64,000 nucleotides of DNA, taken from positions 959,856 to 1,023,855 of the forward strand of contig NZ_CP090958.1 of assembly GCF_025787225.1 (NCBI RefSeq). The letters run 5' to 3'. Both the position numbers and the translations under genes were made by a program. The DNA comes from Saxibacter everestensis (GTDB lineage Bacteria > Actinomycetota > Actinomycetes > Actinomycetales > Brevibacteriaceae). How positions within the stretch are numbered: the first letter of the stretch is position 1; each line of letters starts with the position of its first letter. Under the pieces are notes generated by a model. That model was given only the letters and a program-made list of their open reading frames with translations, ran no database searches and had not been told where the DNA came from. Positions 1,041-63,069 of this stretch are shown here, piece after piece.

Positions 1041-1074
1041 TCCACAGGAAGCACCGCAACGTAAGTTATCCACA
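1041..1074 (+). promoter_or_regulatory. DnaA-box-like pair upstream of yraN
   Basis: The sequence reads TCCACAG, 18 bases, then TTATCCACA. The second element (1066-1074) is a perfect match to the general DnaA-box consensus TTWTNCACA; the first is a partial match. The same pair with identical 18-base spacing occurs upstream of recA at 61217-61250. Whether DnaA binds is inference. The rest of the 938-1143 spacer holds no clear gene. Confidence 0.4.
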
Positions 1075-1143
1075 ATTTCCGTTCACCTCCGCCCTGGCTG
1101 TGCCCCGCATCTCATGCTTGGTTCAGGCGGAGGTGTACGGAAA

Positions 1144-1503
1144 ATGCAGGTCAAGGACGAACTGGGGCGGTGGGGCGAGCAGCGTGCCGTGGAGCACGTG
1201 CGGTCGCTCGGTTACCGCGTGCTGGACACGAACTGGCGATGTCGGGACGGCGAGATCGATGCGGTGGCCCTCGACGGAGACTGCCTTGTGGTCGTCGAGG
1301 TGAAGACCCGGCGCGGGGTTTCGGCCGGTCATCCCTGCGAGGCGATCACCTACCGGAAGCTGGCGACACTGCGGCTGCTGGCAGCGCTGTGGTTGCGGGC
1401 GCACACGGTCGAAGCAGCGGGCATCCGGATTGATGTGATCGGCATCGTGGCACGGCGTGGATCGAGCCCGGAGCTTACGCATATCAGGGGTGCACATTGG
1501 TAG
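1144..1503 (+). CDS. yraN: YraN/UPF0102 family nuclease-like protein
   Basis: A 119-residue protein of the YraN (UPF0102) family, which has a restriction-endonuclease-like fold related to Holliday-junction resolvases. The family signature is present: GRWGE near the N terminus, then GYRVLDTNWRCRDGEIDAV and VVVEVKTR, which supply the acidic-x-lysine catalytic-type residues. ATG 1144 is chosen because it follows a GGAGGTG ribosome site at good spacing and gives the usual N terminus; an upstream in-frame ATG at 1114 would add residues not typical of the family. The stop overlaps the TTG start of yifB, so the two are translationally linked. The placement with yifB, dprA and xerC suggests a role in DNA uptake or repair, but the exact activity is not settled for the family. 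Confidence 0.9.
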   Translation: MQVKDELGRWGEQRAVEHVRSLGYRVLDTNWRCRDGEIDAVALDGDCLVVVEVKTRRGVSAGHPCEAITYRKLATLRLLAALWLRAHTVEAAGIRIDVIGIVARRGSSPELTHIRGAHW

Positions 1504-3047
1504 CGCGGGCAATTATCGGCCGAAGCAAATCGGTGTCACTTGATGCTCTGCGGGGCGACATGGTTGAGGTGCAGGCGTCGTTCAACGACGGGTTGCCCGG
1601 CATAGCCGTGGTGGGGCTGCCGGATGCGTCGGTGTCCGAGTCGAAACAACGGGTCAGGGCGGCGCTGGCTAACTCCGGTGTCACTCTGCCGGCCCGCAGG
1701 CTGACGGTCAACCTTCGTCCGGCCGACCTCAAGAAGGTGGGCACGGGGTTCGACCTCGGCATTGCGCTGGCAATCCTTGCCGCGGATTCCCGGGTCGACA
1801 ACGAAAGCACGAGCAGAACTGTCCACCTGGCCGAGCTAGGACTGGACGGGCGCCTTCAGGCGGTTCCCGGGGTGCTGCCGGCCATACTGGCAGCGAAGCG
1901 GAAGACGAACAAGGAGTTTATGGTAGCGCCCGGCAACCTGCGCGAAGCGCAGATGGTCGCCGGCGTTACGGTCAGAGCCGCCGAATCATTGGCGGAGGCG
2001 GCGAACTTACATGGCGGCGAATTCGCGGTGCCGCCCCTCCCACCCGCCGACATACAGCCACCCAGTGCTGGAACGACGGGTGCCAGCTTGGACCTGCGGG
2101 ACGTTGCCGGGCAGGAGGAAGGCCGATGGGCGCTGGAAGTGGCAGCGGCGGGCGGCCATCACCTGCTGATGACCGGACCTCCGGGCGCCGGAAAGACCAT
2201 GCTGGCCTCGAGACTCAGCGGCATACTTCCCGACCTCGACGAGGAGGCCGCCGAAGAGGTCAGCGCAATCCACTCGGTGGCCGGGATCTTTGACCCGAGC
2301 AGCGGGTTGATGACCCGGCCGCCTTACCAGGATCCGCACCACCAGTCGACCGCAGTGGCGGTGATCGGAGGTGGCCGGAGGGTTGCGAAGCCCGGTGCGG
2401 CGTCCCTGGCCCATCGCGGCGTGCTCTTTCTGGACGAGGCGCCGGAATTCGACCGACGAGTGCTCGAAGGTCTGCGGCAGCCACTTGAAAGCGGTACTCT
2501 CCACATTCTGCGCAGCGAGGGCGGCAGCGTGTTTCCGGCCAGGTTTCAGCTGGTGATGGCTGCCAACCCATGCCCATGCGGCCGCGGAACAGGCAAGGCG
2601 CTGCGCTGTGAATGCACGCCAATGCAGAAACGCCGCTACATCTCGAAGCTCTCCGGGCCGCTGCTGGACCGCGTCGACTTGCAACTTGAACTGTTTCCGG
2701 TCGGGTCGGCTCATCTGCATGACGACTCGGTCGGTGAATCGACCGCGGAAGTAGCCCGGCGGGTTCGAGCCGCCAGGGCCAGACAGATAGCACGATTCGC
2801 CGGGTGCGCCTGGACAACGAATGCGGAGGCCGAGATTCCCTGGCTCCGGGCACACCATGCGCTGTCACGAGCGGCGACAGTGGATGCCGACCGGACCCTG
2901 GAACGCGGAATGTTGAGCCTTCGTGGCTATCACCGGATCATCCGGGTGGCCTGGACTATTGCCGACTTGCGCGGGGTCGATGTGCCGGGCCGCGATGAGG
3001 TGCTCGCGGCACTTTTACTTCGGCAGCGCGGGGAGGGAATGGAATGA
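1497..3047 (+). CDS. yifB: YifB/ComM family Mg-chelatase-like AAA+ ATPase
   Basis: A 516-residue AAA+ protein of the YifB/ComM family. ComM acts as a helicase that promotes branch migration during integration of transformed DNA. The N-terminal ChlI-like domain (about 20-150) starts with the typical arrangement around VEVQASFNDGLPGIAVVGLP. The Walker A motif GPPGAGKT lies at residues 227-234, followed by a Walker B region (VLFLDEAPEF) and the cysteine-bearing PCPCG insert. The C-terminal Mg-chelatase domain follows. The start is TTG 1497 with an AGGGG ribosome site inside the end of yraN (7-base overlap), and the stop overlaps the dprA start in an ATGA junction. Length and motifs are normal for the family. 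Confidence 0.93.
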   Translation: MVARAIIGRSKSVSLDALRGDMVEVQASFNDGLPGIAVVGLPDASVSESKQRVRAALANSGVTLPARRLTVNLRPADLKKVGTGFDLGIALAILAADSRVDNESTSRTVHLAELGLDGRLQAVPGVLPAILAAKRKTNKEFMVAPGNLREAQMVAGVTVRAAESLAEAANLHGGEFAVPPLPPADIQPPSAGTTGASLDLRDVAGQEEGRWALEVAAAGGHHLLMTGPPGAGKTMLASRLSGILPDLDEEAAEEVSAIHSVAGIFDPSSGLMTRPPYQDPHHQSTAVAVIGGGRRVAKPGAASLAHRGVLFLDEAPEFDRRVLEGLRQPLESGTLHILRSEGGSVFPARFQLVMAANPCPCGRGTGKALRCECTPMQKRRYISKLSGPLLDRVDLQLELFPVGSAHLHDDSVGESTAEVARRVRAARARQIARFAGCAWTTNAEAEIPWLRAHHALSRAATVDADRTLERGMLSLRGYHRIIRVAWTIADLRGVDVPGRDEVLAALLLRQRGEGME

Positions 3048-4327
3048 CGGCATCTGACGTCGAACGACTGGCCCGGGCCGGGCTGTCCCGACTGGCAGAA
3101 CCGGGCGACGAGACTGCCTGGGCACTGGTCCAGGTGCTCGGTGCAGTCGGGGCGCTCGAACTGATCAGGTCGAATCGGCCGGCGCCACGGAAGCTGAGCT
3201 TCGCCGTTGCCCGACAGCTCGCTGGATTGGGAGAGGGCCCTTCCTCCGAGAGACCTGGTGCCGAGGGCTTGCTCAGCGACGAGCTGGCCTACCATCCGGA
3301 GCTTGCCGGGTTCATGCCCCATCTGGGCAGGGGATTGCAAAGGTGGCGGCCCCGGGTGCCCGATCTCAACCCGGAACGCGATCTTGCCACCGTGGCGCGG
3401 TTTGGCGGACGCCTTGTCATTCCGGGCGATGATGAGTGGCCAGAACGGCTGCGCGACCTCGGCCCGACCGAACCACTGGCCCTATGGGTTCGAGGTGCGC
3501 CAAGTCTGTCGGACGCGGTGCGGGAATCCGTTGCCCTGGTCGGTTCCAGGCACGCATCGGCATACGGGCGGGCGTTGGCTGCCGACTGGGCTTACGGACT
3601 GGTTGACCGAGGGTACTGTGTGGTTTCCGGCGGTGCCTACGGCATTGACGCCCAGGCACATGTTGGTGCGCTCAATGTGGGGGAGTCAGCTGGTGTCCCG
3701 ACCGTGTCGTTTCTTGCCGGCGGCATCGATCGCTTTTACCCGGGCGGGAATACTTCCCTGTTCGACCAGATCCTCGAGAACGGGCTGATCGTGGCCGAAG
3801 CAGCACCGGGCTGTTCGCCGCGGAAGTTCCGGTTCCTGTTGCGGAACAGGCTGATCGCCGCGTCGTCGCGGGCCACGGTGGTTATCGAAGCCGGTTGGCG
3901 TTCAGGTGCGCTGAATACCGCGCATCAGGCTGCCGAGCTGATGCGGCCGGTCGGTGCGGTTCCTGGGTCGGTCTTCGCGGCCACTTCGGCGGGCTGCCAC
4001 CGGCTGCTGCGCGAGGCCTGCGCGATATGCGTCACCGATATTAGCGAGCTTGTGGAACTTGCCGGTCCGCTCACAGTCACCGCGCCCGCCGCGCCGGCAA
4101 TGCTCCCCTTCGAGGCGGCGGCCGAACGTCGGGCGTCAGACGCACTGTTGCCAGCGGACGCCAGGCTGCTCGATGCACTGCCGGTGCGGCAGTACGTCGA
4201 TGTCACCGCGCTGCAGAAGTCCGCCGGGATGTCGCTGACCGAGGTGCGTTCCGGGCTGTCCCGCCTGGAACTGGCAGAACTGGCAGCTCGAGCCGGAACC
4301 GGCTGGCGGCGGACCACCCGGCGCTGA
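3044..4327 (+). CDS. dprA: DNA-processing protein DprA
   Basis: A 427-residue DprA (Smf) protein, which binds incoming single-stranded DNA and loads RecA in transformation; it is also widespread in non-competent bacteria. The Rossmann-like core (about 160-350) carries VALVGSRHASAYG and VVSGGAYGIDAQAH, and the block around FRFLLRNRLIAASS, all hallmarks of the family. A winged-helix-like C-terminal domain (about 365-420) follows. The N-terminal 100 residues form the variable helical domain. ATG 3044 overlaps the yifB stop (ATGA) after a strong GGGAGGG ribosome site. Together with yifB and yraN it forms a tightly packed DNA-processing operon. Confidence 0.93.
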   Translation: MTASDVERLARAGLSRLAEPGDETAWALVQVLGAVGALELIRSNRPAPRKLSFAVARQLAGLGEGPSSERPGAEGLLSDELAYHPELAGFMPHLGRGLQRWRPRVPDLNPERDLATVARFGGRLVIPGDDEWPERLRDLGPTEPLALWVRGAPSLSDAVRESVALVGSRHASAYGRALAADWAYGLVDRGYCVVSGGAYGIDAQAHVGALNVGESAGVPTVSFLAGGIDRFYPGGNTSLFDQILENGLIVAEAAPGCSPRKFRFLLRNRLIAASSRATVVIEAGWRSGALNTAHQAAELMRPVGAVPGSVFAATSAGCHRLLREACAICVTDISELVELAGPLTVTAPAAPAMLPFEAAAERRASDALLPADARLLDALPVRQYVDVTALQKSAGMSLTEVRSGLSRLELAELAARAGTGWRRTTRR

Positions 4328-4418: not shown

Positions 4419-5426
4419 ATGACCGGCGCCAAGGGGGAGCTCGAAAGCTCCGCCCGTGCAGCATCATCCGCCGACCGACCACCAGCCGAAGGCCGCGACA
4501 CTCCGCTGCCCGAGCCATTCGCTGCCGCTATTAGCCGATTCAGCCGGCATCTGAGCGCGGAGCGCAACCGCTCAGCCAATACGGTCCGCGCCTACCTGGC
4601 CGACGTCGAGCATGCGCTCCGCTTCGCTGCCGCCCAGGGTTGCGACGACTTCGACCTGATCGATCTTGGCCTCTTACGCACCTGGCTGGGCACTATCGCC
4701 GAAGCCGGCCTGGCCAGAAGCTCCATCGGCCGGCGAGCGGCCGCCGTCCGAACGTTCTTTTCCTGGTGCCGACGTGAATCGCTGATTGAGATCGACCCCA
4801 GCTCACGGTTGAAGGCACCGAAACAGGAACGGCGGCTACCATCGGTGCTCAAGGCCGGCCAGGCTACAGACTTAATGGATGTCGCCGCGGATCGCGCATC
4901 GGAGACCGGTGGCAAACAACCCGAACACCTCCGAGACCGCGCCGCCCTTGAGATTCTGTATGCCACCGGCATTCGCGTCTCGGAACTTGTCGGCCTGGAC
5001 ATCGACGATATTGACGCCGATCGACGCCTGCTGAAGGTGATCGGCAAGGGCAACAAGGAACGGGCAGTTCCCTACGGCGTGCCCGCTTCCGTCGCTCTCG
5101 ATGACTGGCTGCGCCGAGGCCGTCCGGCACTCGTGACGGAGCAATCGCCGCCTGCCGTGTTCCTCGGTGCGCGCGGCGGTCGAATCGACCAGCGCCGGAT
5201 CCGTGACGTGCTGCACCGACTGCTCGCACAGGTGCCCGACGCCATTGACACCTCGCCACATGGTCTGCGGCACTCTGCTGCCACGCACCTGCTTGATGGC
5301 GGCGCGGACCTGCGCAGCGTCCAGGAGTTGCTAGGTCACTCGAGCCTGGCAACTACCCAGATTTACACCCAGGTCTCGATGGAACGATTGACATCTAGTT
5401 ACCGTCAGGCCCACCCCAGAGCGTAA
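4419..5426 (+). CDS. xerC: Tyrosine recombinase XerC
   Basis: A 335-residue tyrosine recombinase that, with XerD, resolves chromosome dimers at dif. The N-terminal SAM-like domain spans about 35-125 and the catalytic domain 140-330. Catalytic residues visible are R186 (GIRVSEL), H281 and R284 (HGLRHSAATHLL), H307 (LLGHSS) and Y316 (IYTQVS). The first 35 residues are an unusual Ala/Ser/Glu-rich extension before the core. Gene position after dprA is the usual actinobacterial location of xerC rather than of a phage integrase, and no attachment site or phage gene is nearby. ATG 4419 overlaps the stop of a 9-codon ORF (4393-4422). Confidence 0.9.
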   Translation: MTGAKGELESSARAASSADRPPAEGRDTPLPEPFAAAISRFSRHLSAERNRSANTVRAYLADVEHALRFAAAQGCDDFDLIDLGLLRTWLGTIAEAGLARSSIGRRAAAVRTFFSWCRRESLIEIDPSSRLKAPKQERRLPSVLKAGQATDLMDVAADRASETGGKQPEHLRDRAALEILYATGIRVSELVGLDIDDIDADRRLLKVIGKGNKERAVPYGVPASVALDDWLRRGRPALVTEQSPPAVFLGARGGRIDQRRIRDVLHRLLAQVPDAIDTSPHGLRHSAATHLLDGGADLRSVQELLGHSSLATTQIYTQVSMERLTSSYRQAHPRA

Positions 5427-5608: not shown

Positions 5609-6766
5609 CTAGTTTCGGAACTCCCAATGCCACGCCTCGGGCTTGGATCCTCCCGCTCGAGCCCAGGCCGGGTGGGACCAGCCATACTTGCCGGCATGTT
5701 CCCGCATCCAAACGTGTTGCGCAGATCCGAAACGATTGATTCCGCCGCCGAAATCGATGGCGAGTCCCCAGCCGTGGTTCGATTTGCCCGGTGTCGCCGA
5801 AAGGTGTGGTTTGGTGCGTTTGAGCAGTCGCTGAGTGGCAAGGTCGCGGTAGGCATCGGTGATAACCAGGTCAACGCCGAACCGGGAGCGGAACGCGGCG
5901 TTCATCGCTGCCACCGAGCGGGCCGCATCACACCTGAGAAACTGGTGCGGCGCATGCGAGATCGGACATAGTGCTGATTTCGGTATCTGCCCGTTCCGGT
6001 GTCCGCCCCAGGCCATCGGGCCGGACCCGGATTCCGGCTTGGGATCGGGCTTCGGCTCACGTTGCCGCGGCAACAGGATGGACGAATCGGTGTTCATCAC
6101 AAAAGACATCGGATCGAGGTATCTGCCTTCCTTCCGCACGCCCCAGTGAAGACAGCCGACGCAATGGGACTCAGCTGCATCGATGGTGCCGATCACTTGG
6201 CCGGCTTCGACCCTCTTGCCCGCCTTGACCCGCGCGGCCACGGGTTCGAAACTGATCTTCGTGCCGCCATCCACGCTCAGCGTGACAACGGGACGATCGA
6301 CGACTGTGCCGGCAAACGAGACGATCCCGGCTGCCGGCGCAAGGACGACCTGCCCTGGATCGGCAGAAAGGTCGACGCCGCGATGCCCGGGAAGCCAGTT
6401 CTGCACGGGCGCGTCGAACGCCCGAAGCACTTCCGGCACCGGAAACAACGGCCACTCCCAGCGCTCCGGCGCTTCCTGAGCCGATGGCATCCCAACTTCG
6501 GCGGCAGACCCAGCGCCCGCCGCCGCAGCTACCGGGCGGGTCGACGCAGCTACCGGGCACCCCAACTGAGCGTCGGCAATAACGATCAGCAGCGTGAAAC
6601 CGACCAGCAGAAGTCCGCGACATCGCCGCCCTGCCGCCGAGGGGGCGGCAGTTGCCGAGCGCCGCCCTGCCGCCGAGGGTGCGGCAGTTGCCGAGCGCTG
6701 TAGCGCCGAGCGCTGTAGCGCCGAGCGCAGGCAGAACGTGCTCAGTCGACGAAGCAGAAGAACCAT
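5609..6766 (-). CDS. Secreted M23-M15 fusion peptidase (LytM-like plus VanY-like)
   Basis: A predicted cell-wall hydrolase with two peptidase domains in one chain (385 residues from ATG 6766). A hydrophobic segment at 51-70 anchors or exports it. The M23 domain (about 105-220) has H128 and D132 (GHRGVDLS) and H207 (CLHWGV); the first His of the usual HxH is Cys205, a change I recall in many actinobacterial M23 proteins. The M15/VanY domain (about 275-385) has SNHGWGLAID (H331, D338) and EAWH (E377, H380), the zinc and catalytic set of D-Ala-D-Ala carboxypeptidases. In-frame DNA repeats encode residues about 14-48, so the start lies upstream of them. TTG 6835 is an alternative start. It runs convergent to xerC and divergent from rpsB. 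Confidence 0.85.
   Translation of the reverse strand: MVLLLRRLSTFCLRSALQRSALQRSATAAPSAAGRRSATAAPSAAGRRCRGLLLVGFTLLIVIADAQLGCPVAASTRPVAAAAGAGSAAEVGMPSAQEAPERWEWPLFPVPEVLRAFDAPVQNWLPGHRGVDLSADPGQVVLAPAAGIVSFAGTVVDRPVVTLSVDGGTKISFEPVAARVKAGKRVEAGQVIGTIDAAESHCVGCLHWGVRKEGRYLDPMSFVMNTDSSILLPRQREPKPDPKPESGSGPMAWGGHRNGQIPKSALCPISHAPHQFLRCDAARSVAAMNAAFRSRFGVDLVITDAYRDLATQRLLKRTKPHLSATPGKSNHGWGLAIDFGGGINRFGSAQHVWMREHAGKYGWSHPAWARAGGSKPEAWHWEFRN
6624..6725 (+). repeat. In-frame tandem repeats in the peptidase N-terminal coding region
   Basis: Two 36-bp units (6624-6659 and 6660-6695, one mismatch) are followed by two identical 15-bp units (6696-6710 and 6711-6725, each CGCTGTAGCGCCGAG). Both unit lengths are multiples of three, so the peptidase frame is kept. 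On the minus strand they encode duplicated RSATAAPSAAGR and RSALQ blocks just before the membrane segment. Confidence 0.85.
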
Positions 6767-6840
6767 GCGCCAACTCTGCAGCGCATGGGCAGCGAGAATG
6801 TCCGCGGCGGGAGGATCTGTGCAGAAAGCATGCAAGCCGT

Positions 6841-6924
6841 CCGGCTGTGACGACGACTACATCAGTCCTGACGACGACTAACCAGGCTGTGACGACGACT
6901 AACCAGGCTGTGACGAGGACTACA
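6841..6924 (+). repeat. Four-unit tandem repeat of about 21 bp between the peptidase gene and rpsB
   Basis: Four units of 22, 20, 21 and 21 bp share the core TGACGACGACTA or a close variant. Units 3 and 4 (6883-6903, 6904-6924) differ at few positions. The period is about two helical turns, so a bound protein would see the same DNA face in each unit. The array lies in the 491-bp divergent spacer between the peptidase start (6766) and the rpsB start (7258). Confidence 0.7.
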
Positions 6925-60578: not shown

Positions 60579-60893
60579 ATGGTTTTGCTTCGTACTGAAA
60601 TTGGTGACGCACTCCGCAGCAACCGGCAGCGTCAGGGCCGCACCTTGCGTGATGTCTCCAACGGCGCGCGGGTCTCACTCGGCTACCTCAGTGAGGTCGA
60701 GCGTGGGCAGAAAGAGGCGTCCTCCGAGCTGTTGTCGTCCATCTGTGATGCATTGAACATGCCGCTGTCGCTGCTGCTACGCGATGTCAGCGATCGGATC
60801 GCCGTCGGCGAGGGCGTTGCCGTTCCCGACACTGTTCCGCAGTCCCTCACCGACGGCCTGCTAGTCGACGACCTCGTGTCGCCGGCGGTTTAA
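60579..60893 (+). CDS. clgR: ClgR-type XRE family transcriptional regulator
   Basis: A 104-residue regulator with an N-terminal helix-turn-helix ([41 protein letters not shown]), the standard XRE/Cro fold. Gene order cinA-clgR-DUF3046-recA matches the actinobacterial clp gene regulator ClgR, an activator of clpP and other stress genes whose level is controlled by Clp proteolysis. ATG 60579 follows AAGGAGGG. The C-terminal half is short and acidic and ends in SPAV, plausible as a degradation tag but not proven. Confidence 0.85.
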
Positions 60894-61165: not shown

Positions 61166-61181
61166 TCGAACACGTGTTCCC
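61166..61181. promoter_or_regulatory. LexA (SOS) box upstream of recA
   Basis: TCGAACACGTGTTCCC fits the actinobacterial SOS-box form TCGAAC-N4-GTTCNN, with a perfect GAACACGTGTTC centre. It lies 165 bp before recA and after DUF3046. Confidence 0.8.
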
Positions 61182-61216
61182 ACCGGCGTAGTAGAGTATG
61201 GCCATAAGCAGTTGCG

Positions 61217-61250
61217 TCCACAGACACCGCCGGCGGCCGGATTATCCACA
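61217..61250 (+). promoter_or_regulatory. DnaA-box-like pair upstream of recA
   Basis: TCCACAG, 18 bases, then TTATCCACA, the same arrangement and spacing as at 1041-1074 before yraN. The second element is a perfect match to the general DnaA-box consensus. Confidence 0.4.
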
Positions 61251-61271: not shown

Positions 61272-61294
61272 CTGTCGGTGCCGGCAGCTAGCTT
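61272..61294 (+). promoter_or_regulatory. PafBC-type (RecA_NDp) promoter of recA
   Basis: CTGTCGGTG, eight bases, then TAGCTT. This matches the LexA-independent mycobacterial damage motif TTGTCRGTG-N8-TANNNT at all but the first position. The -10 hexamer TAGCTT lies 51 bases before the recA ATG. Confidence 0.75.
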
Positions 61295-61345: not shown

Positions 61346-62383
61346 ATGGCCGCAAAACAACCGGATCGCGGAAAAGCCCTCGAAGTTGCGCTCGGTCAGA
61401 TTGACCGTCAGTACGGCAAGGGCGCGATCATGCGTCTCGGCGATGAGACCCGCGCGCCGGTCGAGGTCATTCCGACCGGGTCCATCGCGCTGGATATCGC
61501 CCTGGGTATTGGTGGTCTGCCGCGCGGACGGGTGGTAGAGATCTACGGTCCTGAGTCCAGTGGTAAAACGACCGTCGCCCTGCATGCCGTTGCCAGCGCG
61601 CAGGCGGCAGGTGGCATCGCCGGCTTCATCGATGCGGAGCACGCGCTCGACCCGGAGTACGCAAAGTCTCTTGGCGTCGACACGGATGCGCTCCTGGTCT
61701 CGCAGCCGGATACCGGCGAACAGGCGCTGGAGATCGCGGACATGCTGATTCGTTCCGGTGCTCTCGACGTGATCGTGATCGACTCCGTCGCGGCCCTTGT
61801 GCCCAAGGCAGAGATCGAAGGCGAAATGGGTGACGCGCACGTCGGTCTGCAGGCCCGTCTGATGTCGCAGGCGCTGCGTAAGATCACCGGCGCGCTTTCG
61901 CAGTCCAAGACGACAATGATCTTCATCAACCAGCTCCGCGAAAAGGTTGGCGTCTTCTTCGGCTCACCGGAAACGACCTCGGGCGGAAAGGCGCTGAAGT
62001 TCTATGCTTCGGTCCGGTTGGACGTTCGACGGATCGAGACCCTGAAGGAAGGAACCGACGCGGTCGGTAACCGTACTCGGGTGAAGGTCGTGAAGAACAA
62101 GGTTGCGCCTCCCTTCAAACAGGCCGAGTTCGACATTATCTACGGCAAGGGGATCTCCCGAGAGGGCAGCCTGATCGACATGGGCGTCGAGAACGGAATC
62201 GTGCGCAAGTCCGGTTCATGGTTCACCTATGACGGCGACCAGCTCGGCCAGGGCAAGGAAAATGTCCGCAACTTCCTGCGTGATAATCCAGACCTTGCCA
62301 ATGAGATCGAGAAGCGGATCAAGGAAAAGCTCGGTCTTGGCCCGAAGGTCGACCAGCCTGCCGAGCCCGACGTCGACTTCTAG
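61346..62383 (+). CDS. recA: Recombinase RecA
   Basis: RecA (345 residues), the strand-exchange recombinase and co-protease of LexA. Walker A GPESSGKT is at 68-75, and the Walker B strand [10 protein letters not shown] and the L1/L2 loops with [12 protein letters not shown] and [19 protein letters not shown] follow. No intein is present, unlike some mycobacterial alleles. ATG 61346 follows AGGAGAACACG. It is 8 bp before recX, the usual pair. Confidence 0.97.
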
Positions 62384-62391
62384 GTCGTCGA

Positions 62392-63069
62392 ATGGCTTCG
62401 GTGCAACCGGATGAATCGAAGCCGGAGCTCCTGGAGAAGCTCCGGCACGCCATCGCCGCAAAGAGCACGGAAACCGAACTACGGGATGGTGCCGGCACGG
62501 GCGCGATCGCTGATTGCTCGGACACGGAAGGCTCGGTTGCTGATGGCTCGGACACTGATGGCTCGGTTGCGGATGTCGAGACTGAGTCGGCATCCGCAGA
62601 CGATGCGGTCCGGCAGGCAAAGAGCCTGGCGCTGCGGCAACTAGGCATTCGCGATCATTCTCGTCACGAACTTGAGCAGAAGCTGATCGGAAAAGAAGTC
62701 GAACCCGGGGTGGCACGAGCAGTGCTCGACCGGCTCGAAGCCGTCTCCTTGATCGATGATGCCGAGTATGCGAAGAGCTATGTCCGCGCCAAGCGCGAAA
62801 ACCGGGGCCTGGCCAGGAATGCGCTGTCCCGGGAGCTGAAGACCCGTGGACTGTCGGGTGAGCATATTGCGGCGGCTCTGGACCAAGTGTGCGATGACGA
62901 CGAATTCGCCAGCGCAAGACTGCTGGTGGAGAAGAAGGCGAGATCCAGTGTGTCTCTTGACCGGGAGAAGCGAGTCCGCCGTCTGGTCAGCATGCTGGGC
63001 CGGAAGGGCTATCCGCCGGCAATGAGTTTCACGATCGTCAACGATGTCCTGGACGCGGAGCGTGAGTGA
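62392..63069 (+). CDS. recX: Regulatory protein RecX
   Basis: RecX (225 residues) limits RecA filaments. The three-helix repeat core (about 72-225) has ALRQLGIRDHSRHELEQKLI, ERLEAVSLIDDAEYAKSYVRAKR-type (DRLEAVSLIDDAEYA) and RLVSMLGRKGYP. The first 70 residues are an acidic extension with a tandem GSVAD repeat made of duplicated DNA, not seen in the short E. coli form. ATG 62392 follows recA by 8 bp; a later in-frame start cannot be ruled out. Confidence 0.9.
   Translation: MASVQPDESKPELLEKLRHAIAAKSTETELRDGAGTGAIADCSDTEGSVADGSDTDGSVADVETESASADDAVRQAKSLALRQLGIRDHSRHELEQKLIGKEVEPGVARAVLDRLEAVSLIDDAEYAKSYVRAKRENRGLARNALSRELKTRGLSGEHIAAALDQVCDDDEFASARLLVEKKARSSVSLDREKRVRRLVSMLGRKGYPPAMSFTIVNDVLDAERE

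Follow-up and report, generated by a model that had tools for sequence, protein, structure and literature searches.

The DNA analyzed here is a window of 64,000 bp, corresponding to positions 959856-1023855 of the one contig (C1; 4,048,523 bases) of the Saxibacter everestensis genome, hereafter G000. Close to one end it carries, on the forward strand, yraN (UPF0102; 1144..1503), comM (yifB; 1497..3047), dprA (3044..4327) and xerC (4419..5426), the last of which may or may not belong to the yraN-comM-dprA transcript; close to the other end, and on the same strand, lie recA (61346..62383) and recX (62392..63069). The Pfam matches (PF02021, Mg_chelatase, DNA_processg_A and Phage_integrase for the first four genes, as well as those of RecA and RecX) bear out the names that an earlier note on this DNA had given to these genes. 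The region upstream of recA also contains an HTH_31/HTH_3 gene (60579-60893), presumably ClgR-like from its position, a word, TCGAACACGTGTTCCC (61166..61181, +), that we take to be a LexA/SOS-box-like motif, and a further one, CTGTCGGTG (61272..61280, +), that we take to be PafBC/RecA-NDp-like and that has similar words at recA of three other genomes (G002, G175 and G334).

Both gene clusters are preceded by the same pair of words. Upstream of yraN the sequence reads CGTCCACAG (1039-1047) and then TTATCCACA (1066-1074); upstream of recA it reads CGTCCACAG (61215-61223) and then TTATCCACA (61242-61250), and the window contains no other exact copy of TTATCCACA on either strand. The earlier note had reported this pair, with the same spacing and with 18 intervening bases that differ between the two sites, and both sites are indeed exactly as it had written them. 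In what follows, box 1 is the TCCACA of the first word (1041..1046 and 61217..61222, both +) and box 2 is TTATCCACA (1066..1074 and 61242..61250, both +). At 38 bp past box 2 there is a putative -10 hexamer, CATGCT (1113..1118, +), in the case of yraN, where the assignment is based on the sequence and the shared spacing, and TAGCTT (61289..61294, +), common to the box and the PafBC-like motif, in the case of recA. A third box in the window, picked by the promoter ruler described below, precedes a gene coding for an M23 peptidase plus VanY carboxypeptidase (5609..6766, -; Pfam), whose start was chosen from the same ruler. Its halves, CGTCACAG and CTGCACAG, are 28 bp apart, with CACA cores at 6846..6849 and 6818..6821 (both -), the latter 51 bp upstream of the ATG, and a putative -10, CAGAGT (6773..6778, -), lies 6 bp upstream of the same codon. 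Since chance alone should give about one equally loose match in the window (our estimate), the weight of this box rests on the G002 counterpart of the gene (L013), which has a full box.

The genome-wide scan for TCCACAG-N18-TTATCCACA that the earlier note had proposed gave three matches, all on the forward strand and all located upstream of genes, versus none in the reversed control and an expectation of 0.0002 (first-order Markov model, estimated from the window). A looser scan (TCCACA-N10..40-TNTCCACA) gave eight matches, against one in the reversed control, and in six of the eight the TCCACA starts were spaced 28 or 29 bp; thus, the equal N18 spacing that the note had reported holds for both sites, but it is not exclusive. 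Besides yraN and recA, these matches lie upstream of genes coding for a secreted protein without a Pfam match (L003), a protein with an AbiEi_4 match below threshold (L004), a CpaB with a SAF domain (L005) and Ssd/TadZ (L007; TIGR03815, E 1e-88). The finding of Tad pilus genes and CpaB behind the boxes points to DNA uptake. At another place in the same genome (L008, C1:3683721), a gene read as that of the replicative helicase, dnaB, is preceded by clustered DnaA-like boxes of a different spacing.

The pair is not confined to G000. A search of G000 and 58 relatives (59 genomes) found TCCACA-N19/20-TTATCCACA five times in G000, four times in G002 and once each in G050 and G055, with no match in the reversed controls; the G055 match adjoins several DnaA-like words and is, by our reading, near parA. 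With two mismatches allowed, matches and reversed-control matches stood at 5:1 in G000 and 13:3 in G002 for N19, and at 5:1 and 3:1 for N20, some of the weaker ones standing in other contexts, and two Propionibacteriaceae MAG genomes (those behind L076 and L049) gave three and four N19/N20 matches versus one and five in their controls, on the whole no improvement over the latter. At this tolerance, the orthologues boxed in both G000 and G002, which represent two genera, are yraN, recA, ssd, cpaB and WXG100, and the M23/VanY gene, with the third box of the window in G000, is also boxed in both. The yraN pair is exact in the G002 orthologue (L012), and at recA of G002 a variant is kept (L151), with N20 and GATATCCACA. 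Further boxed genes of G002 code for SSB, an M23+VanY protein, an FHA protein and four AbiEi- or REase-like proteins (two above and two below the Pfam cut-off), and two AbiEi-like genes are boxed in G000. Some of the G002 boxes form a subclass having CTTGACGGCACA as the first half (comEA, ssb, the FHA gene and an AbiEi-like gene; L142, L146, L147 and L162).

Within the family, the sample comprised 60 genomes of four genera, 57 of them in a single genus (g2). The gene comEA, which was outside the starting gene set, is the one upstream of comEC, located by PF03772 in the four genera, and its identity was confirmed by the HHH_3 and SLBB domains in the three genera tested (G000, G002 and G001). 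A box lies 50-51 bp upstream of the comEA start in all four genera, the G000 one being degenerate (GTCACA and TGCACA, 28 bp apart). The pattern CACA-N21/22-ATCCACA-N48..53-ATG matched 24 of the 60 genomes, while the reversed controls gave three hits in two genomes. Of the 32 g2 rows, 28 gave loci (26 distinct sites), and 21 of these loci precede genes coding for Ssd (nine), the L003-type secreted protein (five), AbiEi-like proteins (six) and CpaB (one), all backed by BLASTP to G000/G002 proteins, and the other seven (five sites) are elsewhere. In several g2 yraN and comEA promoters (L163, L302, L303, L193 and L196-L198; the YraN comparison covered loci from 30 of 58 YraN genomes) the pair is inverted (TGTGGA/TCCACA), which implies that more than one arrangement of the half-sites is possible. 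The conservation in relatives that the earlier note had taken as a check thus stands for G002, where both loci keep a pair, but not in the same form for those g2 genomes in which the yraN pair is inverted.

In its wider form, the element is a pair of half-sites of the TCC(A/C)C(A/C) type, spaced by 28 or 29 bp in most cases and held at a rather strict distance from the promoter. We aligned promoters on 35 start codons, 11 of which had been found by a pattern fixing the distance to the ATG and the others not, and in 27 of the 35 the starts of the two CACA cores fall at about -81..-86 and -53..-56. The downstream half is found about 50 bp upstream of the start codon in most target genes and ends about 38-40 bp upstream of the -10 hexamer, which is a strict TANNNT at -12/-13 in only nine of the 35 and a weaker hexamer in the rest; for comEA, it reads TACCGT in G000, TAGCGT in G002, TACCGT in G001 and TAAGCT in G003. 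No -35 element is evident at the box promoters. By eye, no ribosome-binding site is evident before the ATG in most of the 35 either; most box promoters therefore look leaderless, and the transcripts of most target genes are probably so. The yraN, recA, ssb and WXG100 transcripts, on the other hand, appear to have leaders, and in leadered genes it is the distance to the -10 that is kept (CATGCT at yraN and TAGCTT at recA, both after N38). Box, -10 and PafBC-type motif also occur jointly at recA of G002, G175 and G334, with N39-40.

The same arrangement was found upstream of comEC across the order, where the gene is present in 93 of 99 genomes; 79 regions were requested of the 93 and 78 were obtained. 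A regular-expression search for comEA found only 18 ORFs in the 78 regions, and a start-codon rule was used instead; in 62 regions there is a start codon that opens an ORF of at least 80 aa and has TANNNT at -12/-13. TCC(A/C)C(A/C) begins at -60..-55 from the start codon in 47 of the 78 regions and is missing from that position in the other 31, the offset window having been set after looking at the data and all windows then counted. Other peaks were found at -90..-85 (21 regions) and at -84..-79 and -78..-73 (seven each), and these are the upstream half-site; the remaining 6-bp windows from -108 to -19 hold zero to two regions each. The opposite-strand control gave 0 of 78, a weak control with five eligible starts there versus 70 on the forward strand. 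Under a stricter CACA rule 31 regions fit, 11 of them with a 27-30 bp pair. By the rule, families f2, f4, f7 and f16 gave no fit and f19 gave one out of six, looser matches being visible in some. In family f11, all five genomes of genus g14 have TCCCCA at both comEA half-sites, 17 bp apart and with box 2 in its usual place, the change from 28 to 17 bp amounting to about one helical turn; the sixth f11 region has no box.

When 297 genomes of the order were scanned blind for GTCCACAG-N20/21-GTCCACAG, 234 sites were obtained in 59 genomes (summed from the table), 160 of which in 14 genomes, versus three in the reversed control. The exact blind pattern is found in none of the 25 genomes of the family among the 297, G000 included; its second half is GTCCACAG, and that of the family is (T)ATCCACA. 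We read 60 of the 234 sites, from site-rich genomes (13/17 in G316, 7/7 in G058, 13/13 in G175, 13/14 in G334, 10/10 in G051 and 4/10 in G146), assigning the downstream genes by reading and by counting Pfam and NCBIfam matches among the 60 proteins; the consensus of their half-sites is YYGTCCACAG. Behind 25 of the 60 there is a gene for transformation or the Tad pilus, or the first gene of such an operon, and behind 19 there is an AbiEi/DUF559-like gene (AbiEi_4 in ten and DUF559 in seven according to Pfam; two of the 19, L372 and L393, lack BLASTP support). The genes include those for SSB (five), Ssd (four), ComEA, ComF, RecA and DUF4244 (two each), YraN (four, with Pfam support in three; L373 was entered as the neighbour ComM), CpaB (four, SAF in three), M23 (four), WXG-like proteins (four, Pfam in two) and DUF222 (two, L353 and L354, both in G058, one tested by Pfam and confirmed), as well as single genes for a RecQ-like DEAD helicase, a GmrSD_C nuclease, the L003-type secreted protein, a DUF4192 protein, an HTH_31 protein and, by reading, a DUF2786-like protein. 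As the first choice of starts had favoured distances of 48-53 bp, in-frame codons were recounted without that bonus: in 59 proteins (L373 left out) there are 46 in-frame ATG/GTG codons 49-55 bp past the box and 0-11 in each of the other 7-bp bins between 20 and 139 bp. In 22 of 30 first sites (L308-L337, six of them among the 60), a start codon lies 47-56 bp on.

Named genomes were scanned with GTCCACAN{19,20}GTTATCCACA, whose spacings are one base longer than those of the N19/N20 element, and at least 119 stretches, 80 of them as loci, were obtained. The matches listed are mostly from Streptomyces, and these are taken for oriC from their many DnaA-like words. Some others among the matches listed agree with the promoter ruler, namely Ssd (TIGR03815) and DUF4192 genes in Propionibacteriaceae MAGs (start at 50), a Frankia gene that is ComF-like (start at 52; Pfam just under the cut-off), comEA in Actinomyces sp. 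HPA0247 (start at 52, TAGCGT at 40) and a Mycolicibacterium frame read as DUF222-like, without a Pfam match (start at 53, TAGTGT at 40).

As for the gene families concerned, the largest class behind the box, with up to several copies per genome, consists of AbiEi_4/DUF559-like proteins with an HTH and a nuclease-like domain (L004, L137, L014, L141, L142, L345-L349, L357, L362, L363, L365, L367, L377, L382, L385, L387 and L389-L391); they are annotated as antitoxins and may have a role in transformation. A secreted family without a Pfam match (TWYGSYRT...CIDAG; L003, L206, L210, L214, L217, L225 and L375) is boxed in G000, g2 and G051. WXG100 genes are also boxed, together with the FHA-domain protein of G002, read as EccC-like (L154, L139, L343 and L147), and it is possible that a type VII-like system is co-regulated with competence.

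One element is therefore shared by comEA/EC, the dprA operon, ssb, recA and the DNA-uptake pilus genes, as befits a competence regulon with a common cis-element, and we consider it very likely, judging from sequence comparison, that the paired box is the activator site (operator) of an actinobacterial competence regulon. A transcription activator would bind the two half-sites (approximately YYGTCCACAG), usually direct repeats 28 or 29 bp apart, and would be placed near -50 and -80, immediately upstream of RNA polymerase, switching on the regulon from promoters without an evident -35; most of the targets would be leaderless, with the start codon at the transcription start. The boxes, their spacing and fixed distance to the start codon, their conservation and the classes of gene behind them are observed; binding, activating effect, leaderless transcripts and induction with competence are all inferred here. 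Conservation and promoter geometry lend good support to the earlier suggestion that one factor might bind both the yraN and the recA site. In a broader form, which we hold to be somewhat probable, a dedicated transformation activator conserved through much of the class would act on paired YYGTCCACAG boxes at mostly leaderless promoters, and its regulon would embed the Tad pilus, ComEA/EC, ComF, DprA, SSB and RecA together with WXG100, cell-wall hydrolase and AbiEi/DUF559 and DUF222 nuclease-like families that may process incoming DNA.

The main alternative is that DnaA itself, as the earlier note had proposed for repair genes, is the regulator, with the half-sites as DnaA boxes and DNA uptake coupled to initiation or to replication stress. 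Indeed, TTATCCACA is what we take to be the textbook DnaA box. Actinobacterial DnaA boxes have pyrimidines before the core, and YYGTCCACAG is close to their consensus; pyrimidines predominate at the two positions that precede GTCCACAG in the 60 blind sites, TTATGCACA and TTTTCCACA are variants that fit as well, and the oriC-side regions of the same genomes have the same words. Not all half-sites, however, keep to DnaA rules: most blind sites agree with the DnaA consensus, but the f11 sites, comEA of G000 and the GGCACA sites of G002 do not, and GGCACA, GTCACA, TGCACA and TCCACC halves occur. The five g14 genomes of f11 with TCCCCA at both comEA halves have 5-13 TCCACA and 1-3 TCCCCA at dnaA/oriC, which disfavours DnaA, as does the strict promoter ruler. 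Regulation of repair genes by DnaA finds no support, the gene set being that of a competence (DNA uptake) regulon. DnaA as the reader thus appears unlikely, and a DnaA paralogue was rejected, one DnaA C-terminal domain, and no second DnaA_C protein, being present in each of 19 genomes out of 19. LexA or PafBC as the common factor was also rejected, their motifs being found at recA only among the sites read for them. It is even less probable, to the point of being very doubtful, that the boxes are promoter elements of an alternative sigma factor: the fixed distance to the start codon and the lack of an evident -35 would suit such elements, but some 38-40 bp separate the end of box 2 from the sigma-A-like TANNNT that follows it, and box 1, 28 bp further upstream, is too far for -35/-10 recognition. 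A chance resemblance of two DnaA-box-like words, however frequent single TCCACA words may be (18 in the window), is ruled out for practical purposes by the reversed control and the Markov estimate for the exact pairs, by the 234 sites versus three of the blind scan, and by the retention of the pair at orthologous genes.

The original finding, as far as the sequences tell, is real and more general than a DnaA-box pair at two loci, that is, a promoter box of a competence regulon, of which DnaA is the less likely reader. In January 2026 the control of competence in Actinomycetota was still described as open; the same source has it that M. luteus possesses no ComK and that its transformation depends strictly on the tad loci for Flp pili (PMC12849477). 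In a second report, the RcpC/CpaB-like Mlut_14650 affects comEA/EC expression and transformation, and Mlut_14660, an HTH_17 protein, was a repeated hit in a screen for raised comEA/EC expression in M. luteus (PMC8467076); the latter protein is a candidate for the box-binding factor, as a single lead. In the literature searched, which comprised few subscription papers and no preprints, no description of such a box was found. A defined promoter box offers a bait for the regulator, a site that can be mutated in existing reporters and a target list that can be read from genomes; this list gives an indication of the actinobacteria that take up DNA, and it suggests that the little-studied AbiEi/DUF559, DUF222, WXG100 and secreted protein families belong to transformation.

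Finally, the box can be compared with known systems. The PafBC-dependent RecA-NDp promoter has the form CTGTCNGTG-N8-TANNNT, which is present at all four recA promoters examined (G000, G002, G175 and G334; recA only); in the four of them its -10 is shared with the box, but the PafBC motif occupies the -35 of recA, with the box located upstream of it. What is common with DnaA boxes and DnaA-regulated promoters is TTATCCACA, the second half-site in the window; they differ in that some of the half-sites described here vary beyond DnaA rules, with a fixed geometry and a competence gene set. The Cin-box/ComX and CRP-S/Sxy regulons co-regulate comEA/EC, ssb, dprA, recA and pilus genes, as is proposed here, although the paired box is neither a -10/-25-type sigma element like the Cin-box nor a palindromic CRP site, and the pilus is of the Tad/Flp type. 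The ComK box of Bacillus subtilis is made up of AT-rich AAAA-N5-TTTT half-sites whose spacing varies by helical turns; such half-sites are not seen in the consensus of the 60 blind sites, and the boxes described in this work, besides having another sequence, stand mostly at leaderless-looking promoters. Nevertheless, the ComK box and its K-state regulon resemble the present case in two respects, that is, a single cis-element placed upstream of both DNA uptake and recombination genes and a half-site spacing that shifts by helical turns, as it does here between 28 and 17 bp.
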